64,000 nucleotides of DNA. Source: Kaistella jeonii (GTDB taxonomy: Bacteria; Bacteroidota; Bacteroidia; Flavobacteriales; Weeksellaceae). This document shows, in pieces, positions 31,601-59,562 of the stretch; positions within the stretch are counted from its first letter, which is position 1, and every line of letters starts with the position of its first letter. The position numbers and the translations under genes were made by a program. The notes beneath the pieces were generated by a model. That model was not told the origin of the DNA. It ran no database searches and was given only the letters and a program-made list of their open reading frames with translations. Where the stretch lies: assembly GCF_000812865.1 (NCBI RefSeq), contig NZ_JSYL01000003.1, positions 124,001 to 188,000 on the forward strand. The letters are read 5' to 3'.

Positions 31601-33235
31601 ATGAAAAATATTGTTTTTCTTGTTTTATTTATTCTTTTACCTACATCAATTCCTGCTCAGAGAGAAAAATCACTTGAGCAGTGCAATGCACTTGTAAAAA
31701 AAGGGATTGATGAATTATACAAAAATAACTTCACAGCTTCTTTGGAAATATTTGCCAAAGCTCAGAAAATTGCGGAGCAAAACCAATTTTACAAGCAACA
31801 ATTTATCACTGTGAATTGCACTGGTCTCAATTACTATCAAATGTCTGATTACAGCGTGGCATTAGATTATTACCTGAAAGCTTATTCTATTGCCGTAAAA
31901 AATTTAAAAGATGATGAAGAAATGACAGTGCTTAATAATATTGCACTGGTTTATTTACAACAGGGAAAATTTAAAGATTCGGAAAAACATCAAAAAAAAG
32001 CTTATGATCTTGCATATTCTAATAATAAATTTACCGTGGTAGCAATGTATGCCTGCAATCTTGCAGATCTTTATAACATGACAGGTGAATTTGAAAAAGC
32101 ACTGTCCTATATAAAGATCGCCCGCGAATTCCTCCTTAAAAAACCTAATGCACGATACGATATTGATGTTGATCTGGTGGAAGCAAAAAACGACATTGAA
32201 AGAAATAAGGCCGACGAGGCTCAAAAAATTTTAATAGCTGTTTTAGAAAAAGCGAATAAAGAGGAATTTAATGAGCAAAGAGTCTCCGCATTGGTAATGC
32301 TTTCTACGATTTCTGTTTTAAAAGGAAATTCGACTAAAGCACTGGATTACGTGAGACTTGCGAAAGCTGAAAATGTGAGTTTTGGTACTTTAAAAGATAT
32401 TTATAATCAGTTTTCAAAGGTTTATTTTAGTTTGGGCAACGCGCAAGATGCATTAAAATATAAAGATTCTATCATAATTGTTAAAGATTCCTTGAGTGCA
32501 ATGAGAAATCAAGCCATGTATCACAATAGCGAAATTAAATTAAAGTTACAGGATTCTGAAAAAAAATTAAAAAATGAGCAAAAACTAAAACAATATGTAA
32601 TTGCCTTTAGTATAACTCTTTTCGTTTTACTAAGTTCCTTATTCATCACTCTTTTCTACCGACATAAGCAAAAAAAGACTATCGCCGAAAGAAATGTAAA
32701 AATTGCCATTTTGGAATTGAAAAACATGGAGAAAGATAAACTTTTGATCGAAAAGCAAAGTCAGGAAAAAGAAACAACTGCTCTTCTCGAAAAGGAAAAA
32801 ATTAAAAATGATCTGGAAAGCAGAAACAGAAAATTAGCGGTAAACGCTATTGAACTGGCACAAAGAAATGATAAAGTAGAACAATTTATTTTGAAGTTAA
32901 AAAATACCCCAGAAATTATTACAAATCCGTCTCTTTCCAGAAAACTTGATCAACTGATACTGGTTTTTAACAGAGAGGATAAAAAGAATGATTTTTTAAG
33001 TCATTTCGAAGAGGTCAATAACAAATTTGTTACAAATTTAAAAAATGCTCATCCTCTTCTCACTTCAAATGATCTGCGGTTTATCAGTTATATTTACATG
33101 AATTTAACGGTGAAAGAAATATCATCTATTTTTAACATTACTATTGAAGCGTGTCGAAAGCGAAAAGAGAGGATCGCAGTTAAACTAGATTTGGAAAGTT
33201 CTGCAGATTTATATGACTATTTATCCAGTATATAA
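31601..33235 (+). CDS. Membrane-anchored TPR regulator with C-terminal HTH
   Basis: A 544-residue protein with signal peptide (ending LPTSIPAQ), a periplasmic TPR array (about 25-310; repeats such as MTVLNNIALVYLQQGKFKDSEKHQKKAYD), a membrane helix (about 330-352), a coiled coil (about 355-425, E/K-rich) and a cytoplasmic C-terminal helix-turn-helix region (NDLRFISYIYMNLTVKEISS, then IEACRKRKERIAVKLDL). The HTH resembles the LuxR/response-regulator class and has no receiver or kinase domain. This suggests a one-component regulator that senses a periplasmic signal. It lies 113 bases in front of a T9SS cargo gene. Confidence 0.8.
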   Translation: MKNIVFLVLFILLPTSIPAQREKSLEQCNALVKKGIDELYKNNFTASLEIFAKAQKIAEQNQFYKQQFITVNCTGLNYYQMSDYSVALDYYLKAYSIAVKNLKDDEEMTVLNNIALVYLQQGKFKDSEKHQKKAYDLAYSNNKFTVVAMYACNLADLYNMTGEFEKALSYIKIAREFLLKKPNARYDIDVDLVEAKNDIERNKADEAQKILIAVLEKANKEEFNEQRVSALVMLSTISVLKGNSTKALDYVRLAKAENVSFGTLKDIYNQFSKVYFSLGNAQDALKYKDSIIIVKDSLSAMRNQAMYHNSEIKLKLQDSEKKLKNEQKLKQYVIAFSITLFVLLSSLFITLFYRHKQKKTIAERNVKIAILELKNMEKDKLLIEKQSQEKETTALLEKEKIKNDLESRNRKLAVNAIELAQRNDKVEQFILKLKNTPEIITNPSLSRKLDQLILVFNREDKKNDFLSHFEEVNNKFVTNLKNAHPLLTSNDLRFISYIYMNLTVKEISSIFNITIEACRKRKERIAVKLDLESSADLYDYLSSI

Positions 33236-33240
33236 TTATC

Positions 33241-33319
33241 ATGTCACATTTTTTCCCGCCTAAGTCGCATTATTTCTGATTCTTTTTTTCATTCAGGATC
33301 GATTATAAAAATAGATTTG
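33241..33319 (+). promoter_or_regulatory. T9SS cargo promoter with tandem GTC-type repeats
   Basis: ATGTCACATTTTTTCC at 33241-33256 is followed 21 bases later by a similar block, AAGTCGCATTATTTCTGAT (33262-33280), then TAGATTTG (33312-33319, -7 element) and AACAAACAA. The same arrangement occurs at 35061-35138 in front of another T9SS gene. The tandem spacing of two helical turns suggests a dimeric activator site. Confidence 0.6.
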
Positions 33320-33348
33320 TTCTCAACAAACAAATAAATTTTATCACA

Positions 33349-34641
33349 ATGAAAAAAACAGTATTTTCTTTATTTTTAACGGGTTCTTTATTACTTGGCA
33401 TGCACACCGTAGATGCGCAAGTATATAAAATTGGAGAAGGCGTTTATTTTCCGGGTGGTGTGTCTAATAATTCGGTCGTTTCTATAATGCAGGGGAAAGA
33501 TATGTATAAATGGGATACAACCAGCGGCTTAGTCAATATTGGGACATTAGCAGTTGGGACTTCGCTTTCGGGTAATATATGCATCACTAATGATGGTTCA
33601 AAGATTGCCGGCAGCTTTACAAATCCGGTAAACAGTTTAAATGAAATGTCAATTTATGATGTTGGCAGCCAAACCTGGCAAAATTTAGGCAGCATTGCAG
33701 CAACTGGTTCTGGTACTGATCTGAGTTCAAGTTGGGGGATGTCTGGAGACGGGAGTATCATCGTTGGTCTCGGCTGGATCAATGCAGGTAAGGCGCATGC
33801 AGTGAAATGGGATGCTGCTAACGGAATGGTTGATTTGGGAGCAGTATTAGCGACCAGAAGTTCACGTGCAAATGCGATAAGCAATAATAAAGAGATTATT
33901 GTAGGATGGCAAGATCAGGCCGATGGATTCAGATCGGGAGTAAAATGGGTAAATGGTATTGTACAATATATTAAAGATAACGACAATAATCTGGTTGGTG
34001 AAGCAGTAGGAGTTTCGGACGACGGAAAAATAATTGCTGGTGGGAATCAAGGTTTGCCATATGTGTGGAATGAAACCACAGGATTTCAAAAGATTACCCA
34101 TCCCAATGCAAGTCCATTCTTTAAAGGAGCAGCAACTGGAATTTCTGGAGATGGAAAAACAGTGGTTGGATATTTCAGACCTAACGGTCCTCCATTTGGT
34201 GGTGAAGGTTATATCTGGACAGAAGCGACGGGAAGAATAAACCTTAATGATTATGTTACTTCATTAGGATTAAGTACTGAGGGATTAACTTTTAGTTTGC
34301 CTCTTGCTATTTCGCAGGATGGGAAAAAAATAGTTGGTACTGGCGTAAAGACCGGTACATTTCAAGCTGTTGCCTTTTTGATTGATCTTACTTCAACTCT
34401 TGCAACTCAAAATTGGAGTAAAACTCAAATTACGATCGCACCAAATCCAGTAAAAGAATCCTTGACGATATTTGGTGGAAAAATTGACAGTGTAGAAATA
34501 TACAGCTTAACTGGGCAGAAAATGAAGGATTTGAAAATTGTAAATGGAAAAGCTGATGTTTCTTATTTATCCAAAGGAGTCTACATTTTAAAGGTAGTTG
34601 CTGAAGGTAAAAAACAAAATATCAAGTTTATTAAAGAATAA
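33349..34641 (+). CDS. T9SS cargo protein with HAF-like propeller repeats
   Basis: A 430-residue secreted protein. Signal peptide residues 1-23 (ending VDAQ). Residues about 25-340 contain repeated segments of the form GxSxDGxxIVGxxW (for example WGMSGDGSIIVGLGW and GVSDDGKIIAGG), as in extracellular HAF-repeat or beta-propeller proteins. The last 70 residues, with IAPNPVKESL, VEIYSLTGQKM and SKGVYILKVVAEGK, form a type A T9SS sorting domain, so the protein is exported across the outer membrane. It is a paralogue of the 58291-59562 protein over its whole length. The function is unknown. Confidence 0.88.
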   Translation: MKKTVFSLFLTGSLLLGMHTVDAQVYKIGEGVYFPGGVSNNSVVSIMQGKDMYKWDTTSGLVNIGTLAVGTSLSGNICITNDGSKIAGSFTNPVNSLNEMSIYDVGSQTWQNLGSIAATGSGTDLSSSWGMSGDGSIIVGLGWINAGKAHAVKWDAANGMVDLGAVLATRSSRANAISNNKEIIVGWQDQADGFRSGVKWVNGIVQYIKDNDNNLVGEAVGVSDDGKIIAGGNQGLPYVWNETTGFQKITHPNASPFFKGAATGISGDGKTVVGYFRPNGPPFGGEGYIWTEATGRINLNDYVTSLGLSTEGLTFSLPLAISQDGKKIVGTGVKTGTFQAVAFLIDLTSTLATQNWSKTQITIAPNPVKESLTIFGGKIDSVEIYSLTGQKMKDLKIVNGKADVSYLSKGVYILKVVAEGKKQNIKFIKE

Positions 34642-34663
34642 TTATCGTTTGTGTTTTTATATG

Positions 34664-34697
34664 AAAAGGGATGTCTCATTATTGGGATGTCCTTTTT
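34664..34697 (+). terminator. Weak terminator-like hairpin after the T9SS gene
   Basis: AAAAGGG (34664-34670) can pair with TCCTTTT (34690-34696, one G-U pair) around a loop of 19 bases. The following bases are T-rich. The small stem and large loop make this a weak candidate. Confidence 0.4.
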
Positions 34698-34952
34698 CTC
34701 TACTATCACTTGCAAGAATAAAATTCGGTCATTGATTATGAAATGTTCTTTCTCTGATATTATTCGATAAATAGAAGTTCTGCTCCGAAGGAAATATTAG
34801 TTTTTACTGTGAAAATTGTAAAAAAACTCTTTTACATTACATCGAATGTATGTAAAACAGAAATTTAGGGGTCGATTTCTTTTCGATGATCATTTCTCAC
34901 AATCACTTTCTTTGGGGTTTCATTTTAATATACATTAAATGAATTTAAATGC

Positions 34953-35012
34953 TATTTTTTGATTGCAAACAGCTATTTTAAAATAAAAGCTGAGTTTAAA
35001 AATCAAAAAATA
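34953..35012. repeat. Large AT-rich inverted repeat
   Basis: TATTTTTTGATT (34953-34964) and its perfect complement (35001-35012) flank an inner inverted repeat CAGCT/AGCTG (34970-34974 and 34988-34992). Together they form a two-part hairpin of 60 bases. It lies about 50 bases upstream of the tandem-repeat promoter element. Confidence 0.75.
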
Positions 35013-35060
35013 CCTCTTGGATATAATATATATAAAATTGATTTTCAGTTTGTTATAGAA

Positions 35061-35138
35061 ATGTCACGTTTTTTCCTGTTAAAGTCTTGCTTTTTCTGAT
35101 AGATTTTTATTTCCGAGAAAATTATTGAAATAAATTTG
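35061..35138 (+). promoter_or_regulatory. T9SS cargo promoter with tandem GTC-type repeats (second copy)
   Basis: ATGTCACGTTTTTTCC (35061-35076) and, 21 bases later, AAGTCTTGCTTTTTCTGAT (35082-35100), followed by TAAATTTG at 35131-35138 (-7 element) and AACAAACAA. The positions relative to the ATG (105 bases) nearly equal those in front of the 33349 gene (108 bases). Confidence 0.6.
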
Positions 35139-35165
35139 TACGCAACAAACAATATAATTTACATC

Positions 35166-37493
35166 ATGAAAAAAACATTACTTACTTTAATTTTTCTATT
35201 GTTTCTGCAATTTGCTTTTGGACAGGTGAGCTTCGTAGGAAATCCAACCTATGGGCAACTTCGAAATTTTGTCTATGATCAAAATGTACCCAATAGGGTG
35301 TATGCAACCACATATATCGATAAAAATATAATGGTTTCAAATGATAATGGGGTAACCTGGAGCGTGTTTTATACTTTACCTTATCCCGCCTATTCACCTT
35401 CCATCAGCAAAATGCATCTTACAAAAAATAATACCGCATTAAGTTTTATACAGTACTTTGGAATTGGTAGTCCTGCTAATAAAGTTGTGGTACTTGATCT
35501 GCAATCCCGAACCACATTGAAAGAATATAGTGTACCACCGAATTTAAATATTTCAGGTATCGCGAATTACAATATAAAAGATGACGGAACATTTAATGTA
35601 GCAACAATGTTTGCTAACGGTGATAGTGATCAATTTTTCTACACAACGAATGGCGGCGCAACATGGACTAAAGTTTATGATGGTGCAAACGATGCAAATG
35701 TTAAAATTAATGATGCAGTGATGGATCCTACAAATGACCAGAAATTATTTGTTGTAAGAAACGGTGGTCCAGGAAATATTGATGGAGGTTTATTGATCAG
35801 TAATGATCGCGGTGCAACCTGGACCGAAAAACTGAATGGGCTTATTCTTCAGTCTATTGCAATTAATCCTCAGAACTCTGACATTATTTATGTAGGTACT
35901 GGTGTAAGATTTATCAATCCAGAGCAGCATCAAGCAGTGTATAAATCTATAGATGGCGGAGTAACCTGGGCAGAAGTAACAGGAATTACCTGGTCAACAG
36001 GTCAAGGAGCATTATTAAACGTTCCCAATATTGAAATTAATCCGAATAATCCGAATCATATTATCGTTTTAGGCGATGAAAGGGTTGCAGTCTCGGTTAA
36101 TGCTGGAGCAACCTGGACCACGACGATGGCAAATGGTTCTGTAGATGGCGACAGTTATTTTTATGGATTTAATGCTGCGTTCAATCCATTTGACAGCAAT
36201 CAGGTTTTTCTTGGTAACAACAGTTTTCCGAAGTTTTCTAGTGATAAAGGAGTAACACTGGTATCGGTCGCAAATCCTTATTTTAATGCACAGGGGAAAG
36301 TAACGGTCATTAATGACGGCGGTACAGATCAACTTTTATATGGTGTTCAATACGGCTACTCCAAAAAAAACTTATCAGATAATACGGACACGCCGATCTC
36401 CGTTTTGCCACGCAATGAAACTCCGGGCAATGTTCAGATTCCGATCACTTACTTTGACAAAAATCTTCCGGGTAGAACTTATTTTCAAGCTTCAGGATTC
36501 GGTGGTGGAAATATCAATGTCAGCAATGACTACGGTGCAACCTCATTTTCCATTTACAGTACTTTTGACATTGGCTTTACCGTGGCAGAAACCGACCCCT
36601 CCAATAGTAACATTGTTTGGTTCTCTACTACAAATGGAGAAACGGCAACTTTATTTAGGTCAAATTTCGCAGATCCAGACAACCCGATCAATGACGAAAT
36701 TTCGCTGCCTACTGGTTCCGGGTCTCTTGTTTCGGGTTTAAAAATAAATCCTGATAACTCAAATGAGATTTTGTTAGCAGTAGAAAATAGACTATTTAAA
36801 ACTATAAATGGCGGAACAAGCTGGTCAGAAATTACTGCAGGTCTGCAAGATTTAGCAGGAAACAATTATATTTTTGACATGGTCCGAAATCCATTGAACG
36901 TTAATCAATATGCTTTAAGTACCAATTTGGGGATTTTTTCTTCTCAAGATGCGGGTAATACATGGACTAAAATTTATAGTGGATTTATCACTAAAGTAGA
37001 TTTTTCTACAAAACAAAATGGACAGATCGTAGCATTTACCAATACTTATTTTGATGCGCCACCGCAAGTAATTTATTCCAGTAACGGAGGAACAACCTGG
37101 AACCAAAAAACGACATCTGATTATTTTAACAGCATTATAATAGATGGTACTGCTAGATTTATAAATGACACAACCGCAGAGGTATATTTAGCCACCTATT
37201 CTTTGGGTATCATAAAAGATGTTTTGAATTTTACGACATTAGGAACAGAATCGAACAACGTTAAAAACGATATATTTATTTATCCAAATCCTGTTCAGGA
37301 CGTACTAAACTTTAAGTTTAAAACCGATAAAACTCAATTCAAAGTTTCTGTTTATTCTGTTGCTGGACAATTGGTTGCAAGTGATCAGAATAAGACAAGC
37401 ATCAATCTTTCCAAATTGACGCCGGGAGTTTATATGGTGAAGATTGATTCGGAAAATGAATCATCAATCATCAAAAAAATAATTAAAAAGTAA
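35166..37493 (+). CDS. T9SS cargo protein with Asp-box (BNR) beta-propeller
   Basis: A 775-residue secreted protein (start at the ATG at 35166; an in-frame ATG-like codon 30 bases upstream would put residues before the signal peptide and lie in the promoter leader). Signal peptide ends FAFGQ. The body contains about nine Asp-box-like repeats of the form SxDxGxTW (VSNDNGVTW, YTTNGGATW, ISNDRGATW, KSIDGGVTW), which form sialidase/sortilin-type propellers. The C-terminal type A T9SS domain is YPNPVQDVLNF, VSVYSVAGQLV, TPGVYMVKI. Catalytic residues of sialidases are not evident. It may be a surface adhesin or a carbohydrate-binding protein. Confidence 0.87.
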   Translation: MKKTLLTLIFLLFLQFAFGQVSFVGNPTYGQLRNFVYDQNVPNRVYATTYIDKNIMVSNDNGVTWSVFYTLPYPAYSPSISKMHLTKNNTALSFIQYFGIGSPANKVVVLDLQSRTTLKEYSVPPNLNISGIANYNIKDDGTFNVATMFANGDSDQFFYTTNGGATWTKVYDGANDANVKINDAVMDPTNDQKLFVVRNGGPGNIDGGLLISNDRGATWTEKLNGLILQSIAINPQNSDIIYVGTGVRFINPEQHQAVYKSIDGGVTWAEVTGITWSTGQGALLNVPNIEINPNNPNHIIVLGDERVAVSVNAGATWTTTMANGSVDGDSYFYGFNAAFNPFDSNQVFLGNNSFPKFSSDKGVTLVSVANPYFNAQGKVTVINDGGTDQLLYGVQYGYSKKNLSDNTDTPISVLPRNETPGNVQIPITYFDKNLPGRTYFQASGFGGGNINVSNDYGATSFSIYSTFDIGFTVAETDPSNSNIVWFSTTNGETATLFRSNFADPDNPINDEISLPTGSGSLVSGLKINPDNSNEILLAVENRLFKTINGGTSWSEITAGLQDLAGNNYIFDMVRNPLNVNQYALSTNLGIFSSQDAGNTWTKIYSGFITKVDFSTKQNGQIVAFTNTYFDAPPQVIYSSNGGTTWNQKTTSDYFNSIIIDGTARFINDTTAEVYLATYSLGIIKDVLNFTTLGTESNNVKNDIFIYPNPVQDVLNFKFKTDKTQFKVSVYSVAGQLVASDQNKTSINLSKLTPGVYMVKIDSENESSIIKKIIKK

Positions 37494-51022: not shown

Positions 51023-51616
51023 ATGACGACACAAACAGATAGCTGGTTAATCTCTGAATTTAGGAACGGAAACGAACGAACACTTCCTATTTTGATCAAG
51101 AGACATCAAAAAGATCTTTTTTCCTTTATATTCTTTAAGTTGATGGATGAAGATCTGGCCAACGATATTTTCCAGGATACTTTTATGAAAATTATTGTCA
51201 CTTTGAAAGAGGGGCGATATAATGAAGAAGGTAAATTTATCCTTTGGGCAAAAAGAATTGCATATAATCTAATTATTGACCATTTCCGGTTGAAATCTAA
51301 ACATGTGAAAGTTTCTGAAACGACTTATGAAAATGATGAGTTTTCAATATTCGATTTAATTTCAGAAAAAGAAGAAAACATTGAGGAGCGATTAATTAGT
51401 CAGCAAATTCAGGAAGATCTCATGAAGATGCTGGTTTATTTACCTGAAAATCAACAAGAAGTGATCAAATTACGCTTTTTTGATGGTTTAAGTTTCAAAG
51501 AAATTGCAGATCAAACCGATACAAGTATCAATACAACATTGGGAAGAGTTCGTTATGCCTTGATCAATTTGCGAAAAATAATGGAAGAACATAAGATTAT
51601 TTTAACTCGTTCATAA
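51023..51616 (+). CDS. ECF-type sigma factor (sigma-70 family)
   Basis: A 197-residue RNA polymerase sigma factor with regions 2 (DEDLANDIFQDTFMKIIVTL and ILWAKRIAYNLIIDHFR) and 4 (LPENQQEVIKLRFFDGLSFKEIADQTDTSINTTLGRVRYAL) only, the layout of ECF factors. No anti-sigma factor gene is adjacent. It may belong to a flavobacterial ECF group that lacks one. A small conserved-looking open frame follows 45 bases downstream. The 174-base leader has no clear -7 element. Confidence 0.9.
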   Translation: MTTQTDSWLISEFRNGNERTLPILIKRHQKDLFSFIFFKLMDEDLANDIFQDTFMKIIVTLKEGRYNEEGKFILWAKRIAYNLIIDHFRLKSKHVKVSETTYENDEFSIFDLISEKEENIEERLISQQIQEDLMKMLVYLPENQQEVIKLRFFDGLSFKEIADQTDTSINTTLGRVRYALINLRKIMEEHKIILTRS

Positions 51617-58016: not shown

Positions 58017-58256
58017 CACGCAAAAATACTCAATTTTGAACTTAAATTAATTTTTAATACAGCGTTTGTAAATGATTTTTGGTCTAATTAAAAAGCATTT
58101 AATCATCGAAAATTACGTGCATTCTAATTGTTGGCTCTGAAAATTAGCAGTACGCTGATTCGATAACGTTTTGATTATCAATATTTATAAAACTCAATAT
58201 TTTTGAAATTCATGAATTATGCAACAGCATTTTTATAAGTGGGAGTAATTTTGTTT

Positions 58257-58290: not shown

Positions 58291-59562
58291 ATGAAAAATT
58301 TTTACGTTGCAGCTCTTTTCTTTGTAGGGTTGAATGTTGCGCAAGCACAAGTTTATGACACTGGAGAATATGCACAGATGACTGATGTTTCAAATACAGG
58401 TGTTGCTGTAGGAAATGTGTATAATGCTTATCAGGTAAAATGGACTGAAGGTGAAGGTTCTGTCAATATCGGGGAATTAACGAGTGGGGATTTTATTTCT
58501 GGTTGGACGAATGTTTCTTCAGACGGAAAATATATTTCGGGAACCATGACCAATCCAGCAAATGGATTAGATGAAATGGGTCGTTTCAATGTTCTTACTA
58601 ATACATGGACTTTTCTCGGTGGTCTTAATGCCGTGTCATCTCCCACATTAAGTACAGCTTGGGGAATGTCAGATGATGGTTCAGCCGTAGTTGGTTTAGG
58701 TTATGTAAGTGTTTCTGTAGGACATGCAATTAAGTGGTCTCAATCTACAGGAATAGTTGATCTGGGAAGTACGGTGACAAGCAGAAGTTCACGAGCGAAT
58801 TCTATTAATTCAGATGGAACTGTTGTTGTTGGATGGCAGGATAATGAGTACGGCGACAGAGAAGGTGTTTACTGGAAAAATGGCGTTCAAATCGCTTTAA
58901 AAGATGAAAATAACCTTCCTACAGGAGAAGCTGTTGTCGTGACACCAGATGGTAATACCATTGCTGGCTTTACGCTTGACAATCCTTTTGTTTGGAATGT
59001 TACTGATGGATATACAAAAATAACGCATCCAAATCCTGATTACAGTGGTGGAGCATCAGGTATTACCGATGATGGTAAAACCGTAATCGGATATTTCAGA
59101 CCATTTGGTCCTGCACTTTTGGGTGAAGGTTTTATTTACACCAAAGAAACGGGCCGCGTTAACCTCAATGATTATGTTGCAAGTTTAGGTTTAGATGATA
59201 TGGGAATGAATTTTTCTCTTCCCTTAGGAATTTCACCAAACGGTAAATATATTGTTGGAATTGGTGTTGCAAATGATGAAGCAAGAGGCTTCGTGATCAA
59301 ACTTCCTACTGCTCTTGGAACAAGTGCCGTAAATACTACCAAAGTTGCAGTTTATCCAAATCCGGTACAGAATATTTTACATTTAACAAAGGCTGATAAA
59401 GTGTCGGGTGTAGAAATTTATAATATGGTCGGACAGAAAATTCTTTCTGCTGATAAAGTTTCGAAAGATGGTTTAGATGTTTCTAAATTGACAAAAGGTG
59501 CTTATCTTTTGAAAGTAAAAACAGAAACGCAGTCTGAAACGATTAAATTGCTTAAAAAATAA
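58291..59562 (+). CDS. T9SS cargo protein with HAF-like propeller repeats (paralogue)
   Basis: A 423-residue secreted protein, signal peptide ending NVAQAQ. It aligns with the 33349-34641 protein over its full length, sharing blocks such as AWGMSDDGSAVVGLGY, TSRSSRAN, VVGWQD, ITHPNPDYSGGASGI, KTVIGYFRP, and GRVNLNDYVASLGL. The C-terminal type A T9SS domain reads VYPNPVQNILHL, VEIYNMVGQKIL, TKGAYLLKV. Its gene is divergent from the AraC-type TPR regulator, whereas its paralogue lies next to the other TPR regulator. The function is unknown. Confidence 0.88.
   Translation: MKNFYVAALFFVGLNVAQAQVYDTGEYAQMTDVSNTGVAVGNVYNAYQVKWTEGEGSVNIGELTSGDFISGWTNVSSDGKYISGTMTNPANGLDEMGRFNVLTNTWTFLGGLNAVSSPTLSTAWGMSDDGSAVVGLGYVSVSVGHAIKWSQSTGIVDLGSTVTSRSSRANSINSDGTVVVGWQDNEYGDREGVYWKNGVQIALKDENNLPTGEAVVVTPDGNTIAGFTLDNPFVWNVTDGYTKITHPNPDYSGGASGITDDGKTVIGYFRPFGPALLGEGFIYTKETGRVNLNDYVASLGLDDMGMNFSLPLGISPNGKYIVGIGVANDEARGFVIKLPTALGTSAVNTTKVAVYPNPVQNILHLTKADKVSGVEIYNMVGQKILSADKVSKDGLDVSKLTKGAYLLKVKTETQSETIKLLKK

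Follow-up and report, generated by a model that had tools for sequence, protein, structure and literature searches.

In Kaistella jeonii a tandem GTC element precedes two unrelated T9SS cargo genes. We conclude, with a probability of roughly 0.8, that the element serves as operator for the membrane-spanning TPR-LuxR-type regulator encoded next to it. This regulator would activate the cargo promoter as a strictly local regulon, a duplicate of the element having added a second cargo in this species. A sequence-only reading of the window (the whole stretch of DNA analysed, 64,000 nucleotides; features in Table 1) had put forward the neighboring TPR-HTH gene as a candidate regulator, and this is strongly supported, as the element accompanies orthologs of the regulator and is absent elsewhere.

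Table 1. Regulator, candidate operators, promoter boxes and cargo genes in the K. jeonii window
Feature	Positions	Strand	Description	Evidence
TPR-HTH regulator gene	31601..33235	+		TPR_12 1.9e-20, TPR_MalT 2.2e-8 (Pfam); hydropathy; AF2
Putative operator, copy A	33241-33279	+	ATGTCACATTTTTTCCCGCCTAAGTCGCATTATTTCTGA; GTC at 33243 and 33264, 21 bp apart	
-7 box of the 33349 gene	33312-33319	+	TAGATTTG; 48 bp past the second GTC	
33349 gene	33349..34641	+	T9SS type A cargo, 430 aa, HAF-repeat	Por_Secre_tail 1.4e-8, TIGR04183, HAF_rpt
Putative operator, copy B	35061-35099	+	ATGTCACGTTTTTTCCTGTTAAAGTCTTGCTTTTTCTGA; GTC at 35063 and 35084, 21 bp apart	
-7 box of the 35166 gene	35131-35138	+	TAAATTTG; 47 bp past the second GTC	
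35166 gene	35166..37493	+	T9SS type A cargo, 775 aa, BNR/Sortilin-Vps10 propeller	Sortilin-Vps10 8.1e-21, Por_Secre_tail 5.9e-17

Two copies of one promoter segment in K. jeonii

Read directly from the window, both copies are 39 bp long, and the two regions have in common ATGTCAC-nTTTTTTCC, another GTC block at a distance of exactly 21 bp from the first, and TTTCTGA; the leader CAACAAACAA is also common to the two regions, which run down to the ATG codons of the 33349 and 35166 genes. The shared layout and the 21-base period, both pointed out by the sequence-only reading, hold up. The composite pattern matches twice in the window and not at all in 100 dinucleotide shuffles, and with up to three mismatches allowed its matches in the 3.26-Mb genome are copies A and B only. 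Profile R1 (see below) likewise finds exactly these two in the genome, copy A at 27.3 bits (E = 1.7e-5) and copy B at 32.8 bits (E = 3.3e-7). Copy A begins 5 nt past the regulator stop codon, the ancestral position as found in relatives. Copy B lies 1.8 kb from the regulator, ahead of the gene whose product is orthologous to the regulator's adjacent partner cargo in relatives and other genera.

When the two regions are aligned locally the score is 117, where shuffled sequences average 30 and reach at most 55; the non-coding part alone still scores 82 (shuffle maximum 54). The aligned stretch is 137 bp long, reaching from the element past the leader and the start codon and taking in about 27 bases that encode the signal peptide. 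Because the similarity continues in this way past the promoter, copies A and B are paralogous copies of one promoter-leader-signal-peptide segment of about 137 bp. Duplication of flanking DNA, which the sequence-only reading had set against a functional element, is thus indeed seen in this genome, but the single-copy element is conserved across genera, and this shows it to be functional despite the local duplication.

The products of the two genes are not homologous, as had been claimed: beyond the signal-peptide start, which is similar in both, they have the T9SS C-terminal domain alone in common. On the simplest account, a HAF-type cargo would have been inserted between the regulator and its cargo, under the duplicated promoter-to-signal-peptide segment; other members of its HAF-repeat family, including a paralog at window position 58291, are located elsewhere. 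Given that this segment is duplicated in the K. jeonii genome, a second, unrelated cargo has probably come under the same control, and the regulator should govern two cargoes here. HAF-repeat T9SS cargo genes have a separate upstream motif, TTCRTGAAwTnTGCAA (window positions 58209-58224, and upstream of loci L042-L048 and L063-L066), with several matches at one mismatch in most congener genomes (up to 16, the reversed control usually giving 0-2); the HAF-repeat gene at 33349 has lost it. For the ECF sigma factor gene at window positions 51023-51616, no link to the element was found.

The element accompanies the regulator

Relatives of the regulator (E <= 1e-30) occur in 34 of 320 genomes of the family. 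In every close-clade locus with readable downstream DNA (29/29), the element lies a few nt 3' of the regulator stop, with 20-22 bp from the first GTC to the second and almost always 47 bp from the second to the -7 box. Profile R1, built from 28 aligned elements and run over the whole of all 320 genomes, yields 41 strong matches (E <= 2.4e-5) in 33 genomes. Directly behind a regulator gene, on the same strand, are 39 of these; the remaining two are copy B and a match on a short contig of one fragmented genome (G296). The next-best matches (E >= 0.004) are at noise level. Not one of the 320 genomes has a strong match without having the regulator, and the sole regulator-bearing genome without a match (G269) has the second paralog type only. 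Since the strong matches adjoin regulators, and K. jeonii itself has just two, the regulon would be local, one regulator with one element and one cargo, the second copy in K. jeonii being the exception.

The proposal that the element was kept or spread for regulation therefore needs dividing. Its regulatory part is strongly supported, but the element is a probable single-target operator of one adjoining regulator, not one serving T9SS cargoes in general: the suggested genome search for enrichment ahead of T9SS cargo genes turned up two copies only in 3.26 Mb. A general T9SS-cargo promoter element is rejected on these two profile matches and on the HAF paralog at 58291, whose upstream region has no tandem GTC element. 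Autoregulation through the same element is rejected as well, the profile having no match upstream of regulator genes.

GTC arrays and promoters in the wider family

Named genomes, when scanned, yielded 80 loci, 78 of them distinct, from Chryseobacterium, Epilithonimonas, Moheibacter, Chishuiella, Flavobacterium, Aequorivita, Winogradskyella, Bizionia and Planktosalinus, and from assemblies labelled Bacteroidales. A GTC pair 20-23 bp apart and no more than 75 nt past the regulator stop is found in 63 of the 78 (shuffles: mean 1.8, maximum 8) and in 25 of 34 de-replicated loci (shuffles: mean 0.9, maximum 5); such pairs occur in 1.6% of background tiles. A spacing of 20-23 bp, varying by 1-2 bp, is thus general in the regulator family. 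GTC-GTC distances peak at 10, 21-22 and 32 bp, which are one, two and three helical turns, and the subsites would therefore lie on one face of the helix. The shuffle controls (of pattern, alignment and GTC spacing) together rule out a chance origin of the element.

The positional profile of the family reads GTCACryTwTTTC, an uninformative spacer, GTCnyryTaTkTCc, TTTG at +24 and TAnnTTTG at +47. The last of these is the -7 consensus mapped in F. psychrophilum (PMC9723704); it is present in both K. jeonii copies and conserved in the family profile, as expected of sigma-A. The -33 TTTG is preferred at +24 to +27 in the profile and is not canonical in copies A and B. The profile looks like a sigma-A promoter with an operator just upstream of its -33 region.

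Twelve of the 78 loci show no GTC pair even with the first base relaxed, mostly from one Flavobacterium subclade, plus L281. Regulators of that subclade precede other genes, e.g. PorP/SprF or a second regulator; L281 is the single T9SS-cargo case without a clear GTC pair. Three Flavobacterium loci (L225, L227, L244) have same-family regulators, again without a GTC array, just ahead of PorP/SprF-type genes, which may point to a part played in the export of type B cargo. No GTC pair follows the regulator in one more distant relative from another order of the class (L294).

Paralogous regulators within the same genomes have operator variants of their own in which the GTC core is kept: GTCAC...GTCACnnATGTCRC in Epilithonimonas, Winogradskyella and others, GTCCGATTA repeats in Moheibacter lacus, and TCACACTTTGTCC in Flavobacterium. 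At one M. lacus locus (L134), two regulator-element-cargo cassettes stand in tandem, the second array being GTCCGATTA repeated. Four loci labelled Bacteroidales (L218, L220, L224, L226) have the same cassette with near-identical elements, suggesting inter-order transfer or mislabelled bins.

The constant feature of the cargo is its secretion domain

All 58 complete downstream cargoes of relatives that were scanned, and both window proteins, have a T9SS type A sorting domain. Most of the relatives' cargoes are BNR/Vps10 propellers of about 770 aa; some are P-domain proteins, and one is a 317-aa protein. A further type consists of fn3/cleaved-adhesin giants, whose C-termini fall outside the count of 58. 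At six Flavobacterium loci (L230, L231, L254, L257, L268, L277) the partner cargo exceeds 1250 aa and is not a BNR propeller; fn3 and cleaved-adhesin domains were found in the three of these that were scanned. Because cargo architecture varies while the T9SS domain is constant, the linkage is that of a regulator with a secreted cargo, not with one protein family.

A predicted membrane-spanning LuxR-type regulator

The regulator is predicted to begin with a signal peptide (aa 1-20), followed by helical TPRs as far as about aa 280 and by a long helix in which aa 333-351 would cross the membrane; a cytoplasmic coiled region then leads to a C-terminal LuxR/NarL-type HTH (aa 483-544). A membrane-spanning topology, with the N-terminal part periplasmic, one transmembrane helix and the HTH cytoplasmic, fits both the two hydropathy peaks (aa 1-19 and 333-351) and the AF2 layout. 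The pLDDT is 83 for the whole protein and 87 for the HTH domain alone (aa 455-544). The top structural matches listed for the HTH model are LuxR/NarL-type domains (Z 7.0-8.7 over about 60 residues), including DosR, LiaR, VraR, RcsB and ComA (Z up to 8.7, about 63 residues), and as modeled it has the four-helix LuxR/NarL (GerE) fold. At E <= 1, PF00196 (GerE) matches 36 of 39 members (best 7.3e-6), the window protein at 0.062 and below the gathering score; Sigma70_r4 profiles match the HTH as weakly as GerE does. Fold neighbors of the TPR part are the peptide-binding TPRs LGN, KLC, Rap and NprR, a common fold that does not imply a common ligand.

The core of the recognition helix, RKRK[ED]R, is invariant among the regulators. 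Where the operator is of the triple-GTCAC type, 16 of 17 regulators have the pair SC directly ahead of this core, compared with 1 of 62 regulators elsewhere. This association between operator class and helix hints at a recognition pairing and is suggestive only, because it comes mostly from one clade. Operator-class labels on the regulator tree came from crude patterns on a quick tree in which one locus (L213) is misplaced, and we use it for broad clustering only.

A proposed operator weighed against other readings

As an operator, the element would work as follows. The regulator would be a one-component protein that senses through a periplasmic TPR part, crosses the membrane with a single helix and carries its LuxR/NarL-type HTH in the cytoplasm. 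HTH domains would bind the GTC subsites head to tail, on one DNA face, just upstream of the -33 region. From there they would bring sigma-A RNA polymerase to the promoter of the cargo gene (in the family profile, TTTG-N19-TAnnTTTG), so that one regulator serves one cargo gene or, in K. jeonii, two cargoes by way of the duplicated segment. Set against this reading are the non-canonical -33 TTTG of copies A and B, the twelve of 78 loci without a GTC pair, and the 1-2 bp variation in half-site spacing. Co-occurrence alone does not imply contact either, because the regulator, its element and the cargo are linked and co-inherited. The analysis shows the element with its phasing, position, conservation and exclusive linkage, and the HTH fold; binding of the array by the regulator, activation as opposed to repression, and the topology are what we infer.

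With 39 of the 41 profile matches starting within about 20 nt of the regulator stop, the element might instead be a conserved part of the 3' end or mRNA of the regulator gene, such as a terminator, 3' UTR or RNA switch. We give this very little chance. Copy B, 1.8 kb away from the regulator 3' end yet ahead of a cargo promoter, speaks against an RNA or terminator role; the -7 box keeps to a nearly fixed 47 bp from the element whereas the distance to the stop codon varies; and the GTC subsites are in DNA helical phase. It is scarcely credible that the bases belong to the promoter of an alternative sigma factor, TGTCACG being a -24 box of sigma-54 or GTC...GTC the -35/-10 of an ECF factor, even though TGTCACG does resemble a sigma-54 -24 box and T9SS genes of F. 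psychrophilum are served by both sigma-54 (motif SM4) and ECF-type promoters (PMC9723704). In the 28 aligned elements, TGTCAC-nTTTTTTCC has neither the invariant -24 GG nor the -12 GC where these would be required, and the sigma-A box TAnnTTTG is conserved at a fixed distance downstream; on these core bases and this box we reject sigma-54 and ECF promoters. Nor would such promoters account for half-site 2 or for the paralogous triple-GTCAC arrays, and the Pfam scan of the adjacent regulator gave no AAA+ or sigma domain above cut-off.

LytTR-type response regulators also use direct repeats about 21 bp apart, and the direct repeats of the element, about 21-22 bp apart, resemble their sites in geometry. 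That such a protein, or some other regulator, binds the element while the TPR-HTH gene is a mere neighbor is nevertheless highly improbable: profile matches accompany TPR-HTH genes and never occur in genomes without them, an exclusive linkage that a shared trans-acting regulator would not predict, and operator variants track regulator paralogs within one genome. For the TPR-HTH protein itself LytTR is rejected, its HTH being LuxR/NarL-like and Pfam scans showing no LytTR domain. A variant compatible with the operator claim has the regulator repressing the cargo through the element, and LuxR-type proteins can indeed do either. We consider repression rather improbable, since a site ahead of the -33 region, and not over the -7 box or start, is where activators usually bind, and since copies A and B, having no clear -33 TTTG, seem to need help.

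Relation to known systems

LuxR-type HTHs, membrane one-component regulators and control of T9SS by PorXY-SigP are already known. In its HTH fold, and in sites placed upstream of the -35 region, the proposed system is like those of the LuxR/NarL (GerE) regulators VraR, LiaR, DosR, RcsB, ComA and MalT, the last of which combines a TPR-like region with a LuxR-type HTH and binds asymmetric repeated sites. Unlike these, the window regulator has no receiver or ATPase domain, its signal-peptide-bearing TPR sensor is joined to the HTH by a predicted transmembrane helix, and its putative operator is a GTC array in helical phase with one local target. ToxR/CadC and the hybrid two-component systems of Bacteroidota have the periplasmic sensor and the DNA-binding part in one membrane protein and targets nearby. 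The window regulator is similar in having a predicted periplasmic sensing part, a DNA-binding part and a nearby target, but its domain order is the reverse of that in ToxR/CadC (periplasmic N-terminus, cytoplasmic C-terminal HTH). Its TPR sensor and LuxR-type HTH are further differences, and the Pfam scan showed no kinase domain. PorXY-SigP of Porphyromonas gingivalis likewise ties transcription control to T9SS, but it controls genes of the secretion machine, whereas the window regulator is proposed to control a single adjoining cargo. In that species PorA, a CTD protein, passes a signal from the cell surface on to PorXY-SigP (PMC7712824). To BT_3442-type TPR proteins (NF053779) there is a weak full-length match (aa 51-541) of 26.9 bits, against a cut-off of 940, and membership of that family is rejected; BT_3442 opens a cluster of uncharacterized genes that includes a MACPF protein (PMC2954219). 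The literature that we searched, with most subscription papers outside it, gave no account of TPR-TM-LuxR regulators with GTC-array operators and single T9SS cargoes.

Implications for T9SS cargo control

A genome encodes numerous T9SS cargoes, and little has been learned about what turns on each of them. From the operator reading follows a rule that can be tested: wherever a GTC array comes after a TPR-TM-LuxR gene, the two would mark a single-cargo regulon with a predicted operator, promoter and start site. More tentatively, and on balance unlikely, the regulator may sense its own cargo, the periplasmic TPR superhelix binding the secretion signal or some other portion of its T9SS partner (or a signal from the surface that this cargo passes on) and so tuning cargo transcription to secretion. 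If true, this would be a cargo-by-cargo T9SS feedback module whose three components, regulator, operator and cargo, spread and diversify together. The regulator-operator pairs (TTTTTC, triple-GTCAC and TTTGTC types) would make a set for studying how LuxR-type recognition diverges, and K. jeonii would be a case of a second cargo captured through promoter duplication.
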